Source of the DNA: Lentisphaerota bacterium
GTDB taxonomy: Bacteria; Verrucomicrobiota; Lentisphaeria; Victivallales; Victivallaceae
Assembly (NCBI GenBank): GCA_015061685.1
Contig: SUWD01000015.1
Location: forward strand, 1-64,000
Length of the DNA: 64,000 bases
Direction of reading: 5' to 3'
In this document: one piece after another, positions 29,921 through 38,325 of the stretch
Position numbering within the stretch: position 1 is the first letter of the stretch
Layout: every line of letters starts with the position of its first letter
Position numbers and translations under genes: made by a program
Notes under the pieces: model-generated
What the model was told of the DNA's origin: nothing
Databases searched by the model: none
What the model saw: only the letters and a program-made list of their open reading frames with translations

Positions 29921-31132
29921 ATGAGCGATTTGGCAATCAATGGCGGGAAACCGGTTTTTGCAACCCCTTTGGAACCGATTCTCTGGCCGCCGGTTTATGA
30001 AGAAACCGCAGAGGAATTGAAGAAACTTTATCTCGGACACAATTGGTCTTTTTATGGCGAACAGGAGGTTAAATTCAATGAAGAATTTGCCGCTTATACC
30101 GGGGCCGAAGAGTGTGTGATGATGGCAAACGGTACCGTCACTCTGGAAGTGGCGTTGAAAGCTCTCGGTGTCGGCAAAGGTGATGAGGTGATCGTCCCTG
30201 CCCACAGCTGGCTGGCAACCGGAGAAGCAGTGGTCTATTGCCAGGCAACCCCGGTGATCGTGGATATTGAACCTGATACACTCTGTCTTGATCCGGAAGC
30301 AATGGAAAAGGCAATAACTCCGAAAACCAAAGCAGTTATACCGGTTCACCTTTTCGGCTCCATGGCAGATATGGACAAGATCTGTGCGATAGCAAAGAAA
30401 TACAATCTTTATGTGATCGAAGACTGTGCCCATTCTCATGGCGGACTTTGGGACGGTAAACATACCGGTACGCTGGGTGATGTCGGCAGTTTCAGTTTTC
30501 AGCAGTCCAAATTGATGGCATCCGGCGAGGGCGGAGCGTGTATCACCAACAACAGTGAATTGGCTGATAAAATGGGGCGTCTCTCTCACATCGGTTATCA
30601 ATTCGGTTCAAAACAGGGGCAGAAAGGTACTCCGCCGCCGAAAGGAATGATCTGTTACAATTACCGTGTAACCGATTTTCAGGCTCTGATCCTCCGCAGT
30701 CAGCTGGCACATCTGGATGAAGATACTGCTTTGCGTGCCGCCGGGGCTGAATTTTTGCGGGAAAACTTGAATACCATCCCCGGTATCCGGGTGCAAAGCC
30801 CGGGAAGAAAAGCCACCCGTCAGAACTATTACACTTTCTGTATCATGGTCGATCCTGCCAAATTGAAACCGGGCATTGACCGTGCCAAAGTCGTGGAAGC
30901 TTTGAATGCCGAGGGTGTTTCCGTTTTTGTCGGTTGGGGACAGCCGATGTACAAACAGAATCTCTGGACAGTTCCGGAAAGTATGTACCGGATCGAAAGC
31001 TGTGCCAATGCAGAAAGAATCGTCCTTAATGAGCTGATGATGCTTGATCTCACATGGCTGATGCGTTCAAAAGAGGTATTGCAGCAAGTTGTTGATGCTT
31101 TCAGGAAAGTTATGGCTGAATACGGTTGCTGA
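29921..31132 (+). CDS. DegT/DnrJ/EryC1/StrS-family PLP aminotransferase
   Basis: 403 residues, fold type I. The opening LAINGGKPVF is the family hallmark. The cofactor Lys197 is in FSFQQSKLMASGEGGACITNN, and Asp168 in VIEDCAHSHGG holds the pyridine nitrogen. The family transfers amino groups to keto-sugars or cyclitols, for example in aminocyclitol and dTDP-sugar pathways. Here it lies in a sugar-catabolic operon with two amidohydrolase-family proteins and a TIM-barrel isomerase, which suggests it handles a keto-sugar or keto-inositol, perhaps in the reverse direction. AGGAG precedes the ATG. The substrate is not readable from sequence. Confidence 0.85.
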   Translation: MSDLAINGGKPVFATPLEPILWPPVYEETAEELKKLYLGHNWSFYGEQEVKFNEEFAAYTGAEECVMMANGTVTLEVALKALGVGKGDEVIVPAHSWLATGEAVVYCQATPVIVDIEPDTLCLDPEAMEKAITPKTKAVIPVHLFGSMADMDKICAIAKKYNLYVIEDCAHSHGGLWDGKHTGTLGDVGSFSFQQSKLMASGEGGACITNNSELADKMGRLSHIGYQFGSKQGQKGTPPPKGMICYNYRVTDFQALILRSQLAHLDEDTALRAAGAEFLRENLNTIPGIRVQSPGRKATRQNYYTFCIMVDPAKLKPGIDRAKVVEALNAEGVSVFVGWGQPMYKQNLWTVPESMYRIESCANAERIVLNELMMLDLTWLMRSKEVLQQVVDAFRKVMAEYGC

Positions 31133-31134
31133 CG

Positions 31135-31893
31135 ATGAAAGATCTCTTCTTCTTTGATGCGGATTGTCAGGTCGGTTCCGTCCCGACAGCAGGCGTACTG
31201 CCGGGAGTACCGGAACTTCTGGCAGATATGGATAAATTCGGCGTGGAAAAAGCTCTGGTTGCTCACGGCAATGCTCCGATGCTTGGGGCGGTACAGTCCA
31301 ATAAGGAGTTGTCAGAGATGCTTAAAGCTGATACCGGCAGCCGTCTGCACGGAGTGTGGTCGATTCTGCCGACTCAATGTCCGGAATTGCCCCCTGCAGA
31401 AAAATTCTTTGAGCTGCTTGAAGAAAACAGGATTTCTGCTTTGACACTCCATCCTTTTGACCACCTTTTCGTTCCACGCCGCAGAGTGATCGGCAAGCTG
31501 ATGGATATGGCGGCGGAGAAGAATATTCCGGTCATGCTCAAAGCTTTCTCCAATCGCTGGGAAGATTTGTACGACTTTGTTGAAGAATTTCCCGACAACC
31601 GGATGATCCTCTGTGAAAAATTCGGGAAATGGGGGCATGACCGTCAGATCCGTCCGTTATTGGAGAATTTTCCCGGATTTTATTTCGGTTTGACCGGTTA
31701 CTGGGTTCCGGAGGGTATCCGTGACCTTGTCGAATTTTGCGGTGCTGAACGTCTGCTTTTTGCCAGCGGATTCCCCGGTTATTCGCAGGGGTCTCTCATG
31801 CTGCAGCTGAAACACAGCGGTTTGTCTGACGGTGATTTGCGGCTTATTGCCGGGGAGAATATGGTACGTCTCTTAAGCGAGGTAAAAAAATGA
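31135..31893 (+). CDS. Degenerate amidohydrolase-family protein (metal ligands lost)
   Basis: 252 residues. The fold matches PF04909 barrels and the gene beside it (LPGVPELLADMDKFGVEKALV, ending RLIAGENMVRLLSE). Every metal ligand present in the neighbour is replaced. The HxH at strand 1 (MHGHMG next door) is ADCQVG here, with Asp10 and Gln12. The later His of LFHTWG is MLKAFS, the His of LMGHSIFG is CEKFG, and the final FGTDMPW is FASGFPG. It should not bind the usual Zn/Mn centre. It could be a regulatory or structural partner of the intact enzyme at 31890. The ATG at 31135 follows the aminotransferase stop by 2 bp. Confidence 0.75.
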   Translation: MKDLFFFDADCQVGSVPTAGVLPGVPELLADMDKFGVEKALVAHGNAPMLGAVQSNKELSEMLKADTGSRLHGVWSILPTQCPELPPAEKFFELLEENRISALTLHPFDHLFVPRRRVIGKLMDMAAEKNIPVMLKAFSNRWEDLYDFVEEFPDNRMILCEKFGKWGHDRQIRPLLENFPGFYFGLTGYWVPEGIRDLVEFCGAERLLFASGFPGYSQGSLMLQLKHSGLSDGDLRLIAGENMVRLLSEVKK

Positions 31894-32708
31894 GTATTGC
31901 GATTTGGGAGCGTCCCGGTTCATTGGCTGAAAAATTCTGGAATTGCGGCAAAGCAGATTTTCCGATCTACGATATGCATGGTCACATGGGTTCGCATAAT
32001 GCGATATATTTCCGGCGTTGTGAACCGGAAGATATGGCAGCACACTTGCGGCGAATCGGCGTGAAACATCTGGTGTTTTCGCATCATCATGCCCTGTGGG
32101 GAGCAATGAGAAATGCTGAAGTCGTGGAGATCTGCCGCCGTTTTCCCGACCTTTACCGGATGTATGTCGGGATCGTGCCGCATTATCAGGATAATATCCG
32201 GGAAGATCTGAAACTTTTTGACTCATGGCGGCCGTATGCATTCGGCTTGAAGTGCCTTGCGGATTATCATCAGATCTCTTTGCTGGACAAGGCGTATGAA
32301 TATACATTCAAATTTGCTGACGAGAGATCGCTGCCGGTGCTTTTCCACACATGGGGAGGTTCTCAATTTGACGGCGGCAAGGTCATGCTGGAATTGACCC
32401 GCCGCTATCCGAATATCCGTTTCCTTATGGGACACAGTATTTTCGGTGAGTGGGATTATGCTGAAAAAACGGTCAAAGAGAGCAATGGCAATGTTTTTCT
32501 GGATTTGACCGCCATCCCCGGAGAACGCGGATTGATCGAAATGCTGACCGGGCGTGTCGGCAGTGAAAATCTTCTTTTCGGTACGGATATGCCGTGGTTT
32601 GATGAATATCAGGCGGTCGGAGGGGTGCTTTCGGCAGATATATCCGAAAATGATATGCGTAATATACTTTACCGTAATGCGGAGAGAATTTTCGGAACAG
32701 AGTGGTAA
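31890..32708 (+). CDS. Amidohydrolase-superfamily protein (intact metal site)
   Basis: 272 residues. His30-x-His32 lies in IYDMHGHMGSH. Further ligands are His in VLFHTWGG and LMGHSIFG, and Asp in NLLFGTDMPWFDEY. The set is complete, so it should be a working metal hydrolase or decarboxylase of the PF04909 group. It starts with an ATGA overlap on the previous gene, which encodes a related protein without ligands; such tight pairing suggests a complex. GAGG sits seven bases before the ATG. Confidence 0.82.
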   Translation: MSIAIWERPGSLAEKFWNCGKADFPIYDMHGHMGSHNAIYFRRCEPEDMAAHLRRIGVKHLVFSHHHALWGAMRNAEVVEICRRFPDLYRMYVGIVPHYQDNIREDLKLFDSWRPYAFGLKCLADYHQISLLDKAYEYTFKFADERSLPVLFHTWGGSQFDGGKVMLELTRRYPNIRFLMGHSIFGEWDYAEKTVKESNGNVFLDLTAIPGERGLIEMLTGRVGSENLLFGTDMPWFDEYQAVGGVLSADISENDMRNILYRNAERIFGTEW

Positions 32709-32780: not shown

Positions 32781-34145
32781 ATGATATTCAAATCCAAAAT
32801 CTATCAGTTGGGAAATTTACAGTACACTCTGCCGCGATTGTTTGCGGTCAGCGGTTTTTTGATATTGACCAATATTTCAGTCAACTTCCTTGCATATAAG
32901 ATCGTGCCTAATACTTTGCCGCTGCTGCTTGACAGTCATAAAGTTTCGGCGAAAACCATGGCAATGATCCTCAGTACCATACCATCGGTACTTTCATTTT
33001 TCCTCTGTCCGATAATCAGCACATGGAGTGACCGTACCCGCACCCGTTGGGGACGGCGGCGGCCGTTTCTCTTTTTCTCCACTCCGCTGGTGGTTATGAT
33101 GATGATCCTGATCGGTTTTGAACCGCAGATATCCGGCTTTATCCACCGGAATTTCTTTCCCGGATTTCAATTCAACAGCGTCGGAACAGCGGTTCTTGCC
33201 GGATTGATAATTCTCTATCAGATCGTTTTTTTAGTTCCCGGGTCGGTTTATTACTATGTTTCTGCGGATGTGATACCGAAAGATTGTCTGGCGACTTTCA
33301 TGGCAGTAAGCGGTGTTTTCAGCTCCGCTTCAACTTTCTTTTTCAATTATTTTCTGCTGGGACCGTCTGTAAAAAATCCGCAGCTGTGGTTTCCATTAAT
33401 CGGCGGACTGTATCTGGTTGCATTCATGCTTCTTTGCTTTTTTGTCAAAGAAAGAGAGTATCCGCCGGTGGAGGATAAGATTGATTCGGGCAAACCTTTT
33501 TACATTGTGGCAGCAGAATATGTAAGACTTTACTTCAAAGAGTGTTACAGCCACAAGATATATGTGATGCTCTTTTTGACGATGGGAATTACGCAGGCGT
33601 CGAATATTTGCCGGGAGATGTTCAATTTGCTGTTTGCCACCAAATCTCTGGGCATGACACCGGGAGAATATGGCAAAGTTCTGGCAATGGGGGCTCTTTC
33701 CAGTACGATCTGCTCATTGGGATTTGGTAAATTGATGGACAAAACCCATCCGCTCTGGATGTATTTGGGCAGCAGTATCATTATTATTTTCATGAATTTA
33801 TTCGGTTATTTTTTCGTGCAGGACGGCAAAAGTTTCATGGCAGTAGGTATATGTATGACTCTGGTTTACGGGGTGCAGTCACTTGCGGGGATCCCGCTTT
33901 TGGTAAATATCGTGCCGAATGAAAAATTCGGACAGTTTGCCAGTGCCAATTCCGTCATGAACTGCATAATTATGATCTTTGCTTCGCTTATGGGCGGATA
34001 TGTCACTGACCGTTTCGGGTACCGGGTGATGTTTATCTGGGATTTCGTATTGACTGTTGTCGCAACGGTAACACTTGTGCTGGTGATAAAATGGTGGCGG
34101 CAGCTCGGCGGCAAAAAAGGTTATGTTGCTCCTAAAACATGGTAA
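32781..34145 (+). CDS. MFS sugar transporter (GPH/SLC45-like)
   Basis: 454 residues with about 12 membrane helices. The loop between helices 2 and 3 has the major-facilitator signature as SDRTRTRWGRRRPFLF, which is the form seen in glycoside-pentoside-hexuronide and sucrose-type symporters. The large central loop ends in FVKEREYPPVEDK. It should import a mono- or disaccharide with H+ or Na+. Its place between hydrolases and an isomerase suggests that it takes up the sugar released by the secreted proteins of this locus. GAGGGGA precedes the ATG. Confidence 0.85.
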   Translation: MIFKSKIYQLGNLQYTLPRLFAVSGFLILTNISVNFLAYKIVPNTLPLLLDSHKVSAKTMAMILSTIPSVLSFFLCPIISTWSDRTRTRWGRRRPFLFFSTPLVVMMMILIGFEPQISGFIHRNFFPGFQFNSVGTAVLAGLIILYQIVFLVPGSVYYYVSADVIPKDCLATFMAVSGVFSSASTFFFNYFLLGPSVKNPQLWFPLIGGLYLVAFMLLCFFVKEREYPPVEDKIDSGKPFYIVAAEYVRLYFKECYSHKIYVMLFLTMGITQASNICREMFNLLFATKSLGMTPGEYGKVLAMGALSSTICSLGFGKLMDKTHPLWMYLGSSIIIIFMNLFGYFFVQDGKSFMAVGICMTLVYGVQSLAGIPLLVNIVPNEKFGQFASANSVMNCIIMIFASLMGGYVTDRFGYRVMFIWDFVLTVVATVTLVLVIKWWRQLGGKKGYVAPKTW

Positions 34146-34160
34146 AAATGGTCTGATATT

Positions 34161-34964
34161 ATGGAGAATATAAATGCTGTTTCGTTGAGTACATGTGTAT
34201 TCAATAAAATCGAACACAATGAAATTGAGCGGAGCATGGAGATGATCGCTGAAGCAGGTTATCAATATGTGGAAGTGGCACGTTCATTTTACGCCGGATT
34301 GGTTGATGAAGTTTCTGCTGTAAAAAAAGCCGGTCTCAAGGTTTGGGCAGTACATGGGATCCTCGGAGAGGGGGCAATTTCTCCGGATAAAAATGTGCGG
34401 CGTGACACGGTGGAAAAAGCTTTCAATCAAGCTGCAGCGTGTGCGGAATTTGCACCGTGTCCGTTGGTTGAACACTATCTCTGCCGGGATTTCGATCCGG
34501 AAACAGGCAAGTATTTCCGGGACAGTATTACCATGTTTCTGGAAAAAGTTGCTCCGCTCGGTTATACATTGTGCATTGAAACAGCCCCCTACAAGCCGGA
34601 ATTTGATCCACGTTACCCGGACAGCGTGGAGATAGCCGGTTTTGTCCGCTCTTTCAATCATGAAAATTTACAGATGATCGTGGATTTCAACCATTCCAAT
34701 TTAAATGAAGATCTGTTTGAAGTCGCCCAAAACAGTGCCGGTCTGGTCAAAAATATCCATGTTTCCCAAAATCTTGGAGAAAGAGAAAATCATTTGCCGC
34801 CGGATCATTCCTGCGGTGTGATCGATCTTAAAGCGGCATTTGATGCTTTCCGCAAAGCAGGTTATACCGGACCATGCAATTTGGAATTCAATCTGCCGGA
34901 ACCCCCAACAGTTGATAGATTGAGAGAGATCCGGCTGTATATGGAAAATTTACTCTGGCGTTGA
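34161..34964 (+). CDS. Sugar phosphate isomerase/epimerase (xylose isomerase-like TIM barrel)
   Basis: 267 residues, PF01261 family. Recognised by MIAEAGYQYVEVARSFYAG, the metal ligand Glu in YTLCIETAPYKPEF, Asp and His in MIVDFNHSNLNED, and the final Glu in CNLEFNLPEP. The family includes isomerases and epimerases of free and phosphorylated sugars and inositol-ketone dehydratases (IolE). It is the last gene of the plus-strand operon, 15 bp after the transporter. It may act on the same keto-sugar as the DegT enzyme. Confidence 0.8.
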   Translation: MENINAVSLSTCVFNKIEHNEIERSMEMIAEAGYQYVEVARSFYAGLVDEVSAVKKAGLKVWAVHGILGEGAISPDKNVRRDTVEKAFNQAAACAEFAPCPLVEHYLCRDFDPETGKYFRDSITMFLEKVAPLGYTLCIETAPYKPEFDPRYPDSVEIAGFVRSFNHENLQMIVDFNHSNLNEDLFEVAQNSAGLVKNIHVSQNLGERENHLPPDHSCGVIDLKAAFDAFRKAGYTGPCNLEFNLPEPPTVDRLREIRLYMENLLWR

Positions 34965-36152: not shown

Positions 36153-37493
36153 ATGAAATGTTTTTCTTCGCAAAATAAAACGTTAATGGAACCAGCACGT
36201 ACCATTCCCGTTGCAGGAGAATATGATGTTATCGTTTGCGGCGGAGGACCGGCCGGTGCAGCGGCAGCAATCGCAGCCGGACGCAATGGAGCCAAAACAC
36301 TCGTACTGGAAAGCCAGGGATGTTTGGGCGGAATCATGACAACGGGGATGATGCCAAAAATTATCAACGGCATCGGAAAAAGCGGATTTATCCGGGAACT
36401 TTTGGAAAGACTCCAAAGTATTGATGCTGAAATCGTTCATGACGTATGCGATCCGGAAAGTGTAAAATATCTGCTGGAACGTCTGTGTGATGAAAACCAT
36501 GTCAGTATCCGATATCACACACGAATTTGTCAGGTCATATTAGACCAAAATTCTGGCAAGTCGCAGATTCAAGCAGTCATCACGGAATCAAAATCCGGCA
36601 GGGAAGCCTGGATCGGAAAACTTTTTATCGACTGTACCGGAGATGGGGATATCGGCAAATTTTCAGGTTGTTCGATCGAAATGGGACATCCGGAAAACGG
36701 TCGGCTGCAACCTTTGAGCTTATGTGCCATGGTCGGTGGAGTTTCGTATGACCGGATCGCCGGATTTGTTCATCAGGGAGACGGAGAGGAAGATGAAAGA
36801 TTGAAACTTTTTGACCTGTTTGAAAAATTGGGAAAACCGTCTTCCTACTCCTTGCCAAGTTTATTTTTACTGGAAAAAAACGGGCGTTATATCTATATGT
36901 CCAATCATCAATACGGGGTTTCTCCATATGATGCCAGAGCACTTACGCAGGCAACACTCGACGCAAGAAAAGAAATTTATGAACAGATCCAGGCATTGAA
37001 TCATTCCTCCGAAAAGGTCTGGAAATCATTGAGACTCTATGCCACAGGAAGCCATATCGGGATTCGAGAAGGAGGCAGGATCAAAGGACTGTATACCGTG
37101 ACCGTTAATGACATCCGGGAAGGGAAACACCATCCGGATGCGATTTGTTCCATTTCCGCCGGTGTCGATATCCATGCAATGCAACCAAATGAAGATTCGA
37201 AAGCAGCTTTCAGCGATGGAGGTATCAAAATCGCAATGTACGACATCCCCCTTAGGGCACTGATTGCAGAAGAATGTTCCAATCTGCTGATGGCGGGACG
37301 CTGTATATCCGGCGATTTTTATGCACATGCCAGCTACCGGGTACTTGGCGGAGCGATTCCGATGGGAGAAGGAGCAGGTAAATTTGCCGCATGGCTGATC
37401 CGCAACAACCTTGTTCCAAACGCAGAAACAGCATTAAATTTTGTTGAAAACAATAAAATCCAAGAGAGAAAACAGGAGGTTTTTTATGTTTAA
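36153..37493 (+). CDS. FAD-dependent oxidoreductase (PF12831-like)
   Basis: 446 residues. The FAD dinucleotide motif is [30 protein letters not shown], with GGGPAG at 30-35. The next block [15 protein letters not shown] is typical of the FAD_oxidored family found beside sugar-degrading genes. [15 protein letters not shown] and the C-terminal [30 protein letters not shown] complete the fold. The likely reaction is oxidation or isomerisation of a sugar or uronic acid; substrate unknown. It overlaps the start of the pseudopilin gene by 8 bp. Confidence 0.82.
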
Positions 37494-38325
37494 TTTTTAC
37501 CCATCCAGTCACAATACAAAATGTTCATTTCCGGAACATACCAACTCAACATTCTTCCACCCTGCTTTTTTTGAAAGCAAAGAAGAGCACGAGGAAAAAG
37601 AAAACTTGTTTTCCCGTGAAAAAGAGTTGTCTTTTTCCCTCGTATCCCGCACTTTTACTCTCATTGAACTGCTGGTGGTGATTGCGATCATTGCAATTCT
37701 GGCATCTATACTGTTGCCTGCACTGCAGAAAGCACGAGAGAGATCCAACCAGATGACCTGTTTGAACAATCTCAAAAGTATCGGTTCTTGCATGAGCATG
37801 TATGCCAATGACTTTGCAGGATGGGCTCCGCCGGTTACCCCGTATCAGGGTGATCCGCTCAACTTGAGAAATTATGCATGGACTCTGATTAAAAGTCAAT
37901 ACATTGCTGATCCGACTCAGTCAACACAAGCTAGTATCTTCAAATGTCCGTTTCACTACAAAAAACTCTGTGCGGACAGTATGCTGCGCAGTTATGGATT
38001 TAATCCCGGCGTTCTTACTCCCCGCAGCAGGGAATCTGCGAGACCGGAAAAGATGAAACAACCCTCAAAGACCGTCGCAATTTACGATTTGTTTGACAAC
38101 GTAAATCCGGATAACTATTTGCTCGATCAGCCAACGAATACGGGTTCTCTCGGATTAAACGGATACTTTTTTAAATCACACAGCGATATGTCTCTCAACT
38201 TTTTGTTCTTTGATACACATGCGGAAATCGTTGATATGCTGCCGTTCTGGGATGCGGCAAAAAATTGTGCAAAAGTTACATCGTTTTACAATTCATCACT
38301 CTATGAAACCGAGTGGTATGAATGA
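37486..38325 (+). CDS. Prepilin-like (pseudopilin) protein with long leader
   Basis: 279 residues. A 56-residue hydrophilic leader precedes [31 protein letters not shown]. The residue before Phe is Thr, not the usual Gly. The leader from FFE to the Phe has the same length as in the protein at 60667-61521. The C-terminus has [16 protein letters not shown], a degraded H-X9-DG. The ATG at 37486 has GGAGG six bases upstream. The leader-coding DNA forms a 23-bp imperfect hairpin with loop CCGT (37591-37641). A 1224-residue secreted protein gene follows after 50 bp. Confidence 0.87.
37591..37641 (+). repeat. Long hairpin in pseudopilin leader-coding sequence
   Basis: Left arm 37591-37613, loop CCGT 37614-37617, right arm 37618-37641. 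21 of 23 positions pair, counting one G-U, with two mismatches and one bulged C. It lies 12 bases before the Phe codon of FTLIELL. Confidence 0.75.

Follow-up and report, generated by a model that had tools for sequence, protein, structure and literature searches.

Well-known pairs of a pseudoenzyme with an active enzyme have mostly been the subject of single-case studies. That a dead paralogue supports a live one is an established principle, exemplified by the prozymes and by pseudo-dihydroorotase. The trypanosome AdoMetDC prozyme and a dead paralogue of deoxyhypusine synthase are catalytically inactive proteins paired with active sisters (PMC5201418, PMC3663545). In the class A2 aspartate transcarbamoylase of Pseudomonas, pseudo-dihydroorotase is an inactive barrel of the amidohydrolase superfamily that is required for the activity of its partner (PMC7053772). 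Among the enzymes of the PF04909 family, ACMSD works as a dimer whose active site cannot do without Arg239 of the neighbouring subunit (PMC11650718). A literature search, carried out mostly outside subscription journals and therefore weak as negative evidence, found no described pseudoenzyme pair of PF04909 type.

Here we describe such a candidate pair in the window (the whole analysed stretch of 64,000 nucleotides of a Lentisphaeria bacterium). Gene A (31135..31893, forward strand) starts with ATG at 31135 and encodes 252 amino acids, its stop codon ending at 31893; gene B, on the same strand (31890..32708), starts with ATG at 31890 and encodes 272 amino acids, with the stop ending at 32708. 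The stop of A and the start of B share the motif ATGA (31890..31893, forward strand). Both products score above the PF04909 cut-off of 26.4 bits in Pfam (43.5 for A and 51.7 for B), so that the initial, sequence-only reading of the two as adjoining PF04909-like genes with an ATGA overlap was borne out. They are about 20% identical to each other in the window, and all 28 of the near members of the A family match PF04909 at E ≤ 0.01. Curated NCBIfam contained no model for either A or B. From Pfam and the ligand columns B is predicted to be an intact metal-dependent enzyme of the amidohydrolase type, and Pfam, AlphaFold, Foldseek and the ligand columns characterize A as a pseudo-amidohydrolase that has the PF04909 fold and has lost the metal ligands. 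The host genome carries a second pair, A′/B′, on another contig (C2), again with an ATGA overlap; A′ is 48% identical to A and B′ is 65% identical to B.

Compared with the systems above, B shares the fold and the full ligand set of the PF04909 decarboxylases and hydrolases (ACMSD, gamma-resorcylate decarboxylase and the uncharacterised 3cjp, 3irs and 3ij6). It is only distantly related to solved PF04909 structures (best PDB E-value 5e-9), and ACMSD is among the nearest solved folds. ACMSD is built of like chains with metal in both, whereas in A-B the site is lost in one partner. Pseudo-dihydroorotase is associated with an unrelated transcarbamoylase, while the partner of A is a homologous amidohydrolase. 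In Pfam A matches PF04909 alone and no dihydroorotase model; the identity of A as a class A2 pseudo-dihydroorotase was rejected because its partner belongs to PF04909 and its neighbours are DegT, MFS and xylose-isomerase-like genes. The prozymes have other folds, are eukaryotic and their activating effect has been measured, whereas the A-B pair is prokaryotic, phylum-wide, repeatedly fused and known from sequence and models.

The metal ligands of B (H30, H32, K121, H153, H182 and D233) are conserved family-wide. At the place of the HxH motif (H30/H32) A has D10-C11-Q12 (31162..31170); K136 (31540..31542) is aligned with the strand-5 histidine H153, E161 (31615..31617; K162 in the joint alignment) with the strand-6 histidine H182, and G212 (31768..31770) with the strand-8 aspartate D233, all on the forward strand. 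The sequence-only reading held that all the metal ligands of B are replaced in A; this stands and extends further, since the strand-4 lysine (K121 in B), which it had not mentioned, is also lost, with Leu or Thr there depending on the alignment, and A of the window keeps none of the six. The corresponding places in A′ are occupied by NxR, the retained strand-5 histidine, Asn or Ala, and Asn, leaving one ligand. As A′ is likewise degenerate, the loss of ligands in A of the window is not a matter of chance. The same was seen in 57 non-redundant pairs, where 48 A proteins have 0/6 ligands and nine exactly 1/6, while B has 6/6 in 55 cases and 5/6 in two; in a larger set HxH and the lysine are present in 82/82 B proteins. 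No homologue with intact ligands, which would have spoken against a pseudoenzyme, was found among 85 A sequences. As to a metal site restored by other ligands, the A family as a whole has no conserved His, Cys or Glu; D8, H110 and D169 are well conserved in the near subfamily, where an alternative site seems unlikely.

The loss of the metal site left the fold in place. AlphaFold predicted A of the window as a barrel with a mean pLDDT of 92.2 and a pTM of 0.91, and the best Foldseek matches of this model were amidohydrolases and decarboxylases such as 3s4t and 2dvt (TMq 0.69-0.76), so that both the predicted model and its matches to amidohydrolase chains place A among the TIM barrels. The residues most commonly kept in the A family, G14, N56, P79, P107, P153, G203, R206 and N242, are read as fold markers; those common to the 85 sequences are mostly Gly, Pro, Asn, Arg and hydrophobic residues of this kind. 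The membership of A in PF04909 is a matter of ancestry and fold, not of metal-dependent catalysis.

The A set comprised 84 distinct relatives across the phylum, or 85 sequences with A of the window. At the E limits used, the A profile matched 44/137 genomes of the order and 50/388 sampled genomes of the phylum; the scan of named genomes used a 9-row A alignment, as the 28-row alignment was too diverse. The named relatives are Lentisphaeria from the rumen, gut and other sources, among them one isolate, Oligosphaera ethanolica DSM 24202. At 62 of the 84 loci B lies directly downstream of A on the same strand, at 19 the two are fused, and three loci lie at a contig edge; a lone A was found at none of the 84. 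The fusions, mostly reading frames of 530-620 amino acids, include one cut by a contig end and two nearly identical to each other. In a table of 38 split pairs, 34 show an overlap of exactly four bases. In the reverse direction, 53 strong hits to B were obtained in the order, and all were accompanied by A, the exceptions being two hits that lie at contig ends and one whose A is truncated; for two fusions in this search the length of the open frame was the sole criterion. The sequence-only reading had proposed conservation of the pair among relatives as a check; this conservation proved very strong and includes natural fusions, and linkage this universal in both search directions rules out chance adjacency. 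The truncated A (L172, G007:C62) has only about 165 amino acids, corresponding to the first half of the barrel, and its gene is still followed by an intact B.

On a joint tree all A proteins form one clade (SH-aLRT 99) and all B proteins another (87), the root not being firm. Given that A is a single clade, the simplest account is one loss of the ligands, an old event that preceded the spread of the family. Pairwise identities among A proteins follow those among B proteins (r = 0.95 over 80 pairs), a correlation to which shared genome history contributes. On the tree built from concatenated pairs there are four changes between the split and the fused state, at least three of them forced by supported branches, so fusion or fission of A and B happened about four times. 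Among near relatives the dN/dS values of A are 0.05-0.24 and those of B 0.02-0.14. Purifying selection on A is thus strong, and A is a working protein: an enzyme homologue whose catalytic residues are lost and which selection has kept.

A natural fusion (L045), whose A half is 53% and B half 60% identical to the window pair, was predicted over 527 residues as two barrels with a pLDDT of 90.4 and a pTM of 0.90. The alignment for this prediction was limited to fused and A rows, as MAFFT had placed A rows on the B half when B rows were included. For two domains such a pTM suggests a well-defined mutual arrangement, read from the score of a fusion alone, and the A and B barrels of the natural fusion would accordingly be held in a fixed position relative to each other. 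What was found of a prozyme-type heterodimer is the existence of natural fusions and this pTM, a score of one chain and not of separate chains.

These observations are best explained by A and B forming an obligate pseudoenzyme-enzyme heterodimer of homologous TIM barrels with metal in B only, a reading to which we assign a probability of about 0.7. The heterodimer would replace the PF04909 homodimer: B alone would carry the metal site and do the chemistry, and A would be a non-catalytic barrel in place of the second subunit, holding B in its active form. A may also place residues beside the active site of B; a dead subunit could retain a contribution in trans, as known for Arg239 of ACMSD, while its own site was lost. 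The candidate for a donated residue is R170 in the D169-R170 motif at the start of helix 6 (31639..31644, forward strand), which is kept in 65/85 A proteins and is not a conserved residue at the corresponding place in B. As R170 is not universal, we rejected it as a proven mechanism and offer it as a suggestion. The 1:1 contact of separate chains, the inactivity of A and the need of B for A are inferred. That A is a pseudoenzyme scaffolding or regulating its partner, as proposed from the sequence, is supported by the ligand loss, the universal pairing and the fusions; scaffold, activator and sensor are roles that sequence does not separate.

Two other accounts would give the former active site of A a function of its own. 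A could be an enzyme whose active site is of another kind, whether metal-free or rebuilt, with the pair catalysing two linked reactions in the same pathway, an arrangement that overlapping or fused genes would suit; it could also be a ligand-sensing regulatory subunit in which a metabolite occupies the former active site and B is thereby tuned allosterically, dead paralogues able to activate their partners being known from the trypanosome prozymes (PMC5201418, PMC3663545). Both draw on the near subfamily, where the polar and aromatic residues D8, W75, H110, D169, R170 and W190 are conserved together with G167 at the C-terminal ends of strands and in the loops that follow, on the pocket side. 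Against a new active site are the lack of any conserved His, Cys or Glu in 85 A sequences and the distribution of conservation: in A no class of elements is less conserved than the beta-alpha loops (2.66 bits vs 2.96 in helices), whereas in B the order is reversed (3.14 bits in these loops vs 3.00 in helices). Against the sensor, pairing is constant between subfamilies although the pocket residues vary. We consider the new enzyme unlikely and the sensor marginally more so; for the near subfamily either is possible.

Linkage and fusion could also reflect co-expression in one pathway, which counts against the heterodimer. Carried to its end, this argument makes A and B mere co-expressed neighbours without contact, in keeping with an operon common to A, B, DegT and other genes; but the linkage of A with B is universal and that with DegT and the other neighbours is not, and repeated fusion and the pTM of the fusion model favour contact, so we regard this as very improbable. 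The loss of every ligand might in itself recall a pseudogene copy of B in decay. Such decay is ruled out by the dN/dS values and the full-length open frames, and also disagrees with the old, phylum-wide A clade that has conserved residues of its own.

Pairs of this kind are also present outside the phylum, as seen in a search of plasmid records assessed by motif and profile score only. The haloarchaeon Halomontanus rarus carries an A-B fusion in the usual order, Subdoligranulum (Bacillota) and Nonomuraea (Actinomycetota) carry split pairs, and Halomontanus and Natronosalvus have reversed fusions, with the intact barrel preceding the degenerate one. The reversed haloarchaeal fusions (L174:5619-7307 and L176:4004-5698) have VDANAYVG in the degenerate barrel, and the first of them is adjoined by an A-B fusion of the usual order. 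It seems to us an even question whether all of these belong to a class of obligate split-function amidohydrolases that is ancient and spans domains. A dimer would then have lost catalysis in one half before the family radiated, one active site would have come to depend on a dead sister, and the halves would since have been fused several times, in haloarchaea also in reverse order.

Related arrangements were noted elsewhere. An adjacent amidohydrolase pair on a Paracoccus plasmid (L178:2812-4675), near ubiD/ubiX-type genes, has S-C-Y for HxH in the first protein, which keeps the later His, His and Asp, and an intact second protein; it looks like a separate, younger case. Two proteins of about 445 and 471 amino acids encoded in the genome of the window (L002 and L005, contigs C36 and C39) consist of an N-terminal stretch of about 180 residues, containing a region weakly similar to the C-terminal half of A, followed by an intact PF04909 barrel, and look like a related but separate arrangement.

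In the window, A is preceded by a gene for a DegT/DnrJ/EryC1 aminotransferase (29921..31132, forward strand; Pfam 3.2e-98) that ends two bases before it. Upstream of this gene, between 25654 and 29725, lie three genes without a Pfam match, two of which resemble glycosidases by eye. Downstream of B are, on the forward strand, an MFS sugar-type transporter (MFS_1/MFS_2; 32781..34145), which is likely in the same transcription unit as B, and a xylose-isomerase-like TIM barrel (AP_endonuc_2; 34161..34964; Pfam 6.6e-21). Further on, a protein with a prepilin-type signal (37441-38325) belongs to a family similar to one found near several pair loci (cluster 4). Neighbours were clustered for the window and 32 named loci, 33 pair loci in all. 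The DegT aminotransferase family was present at 18 of these and the AP_endonuc_2 cluster at nine, such xylose-isomerase-like genes often lying 3′ of B; a PfkB kinase, an alpha-L-fucosidase and AraC-type regulators stand beside some pairs. This setting suggests a place for the pairs in the metabolism of sugars or amino sugars.

On the strength of PF04909 annotation by itself the A genes would be called amidohydrolases, very probably in error. Dozens of diverged lineages carry the pair, some in split and some in fused form, so that comparison can test what the dead subunit must keep to support its live sister. The evidence from many bacteria of the gut and the environment, and from some archaea, points to A and B as inseparable partners of long standing, the active one being supported by the inactive one.
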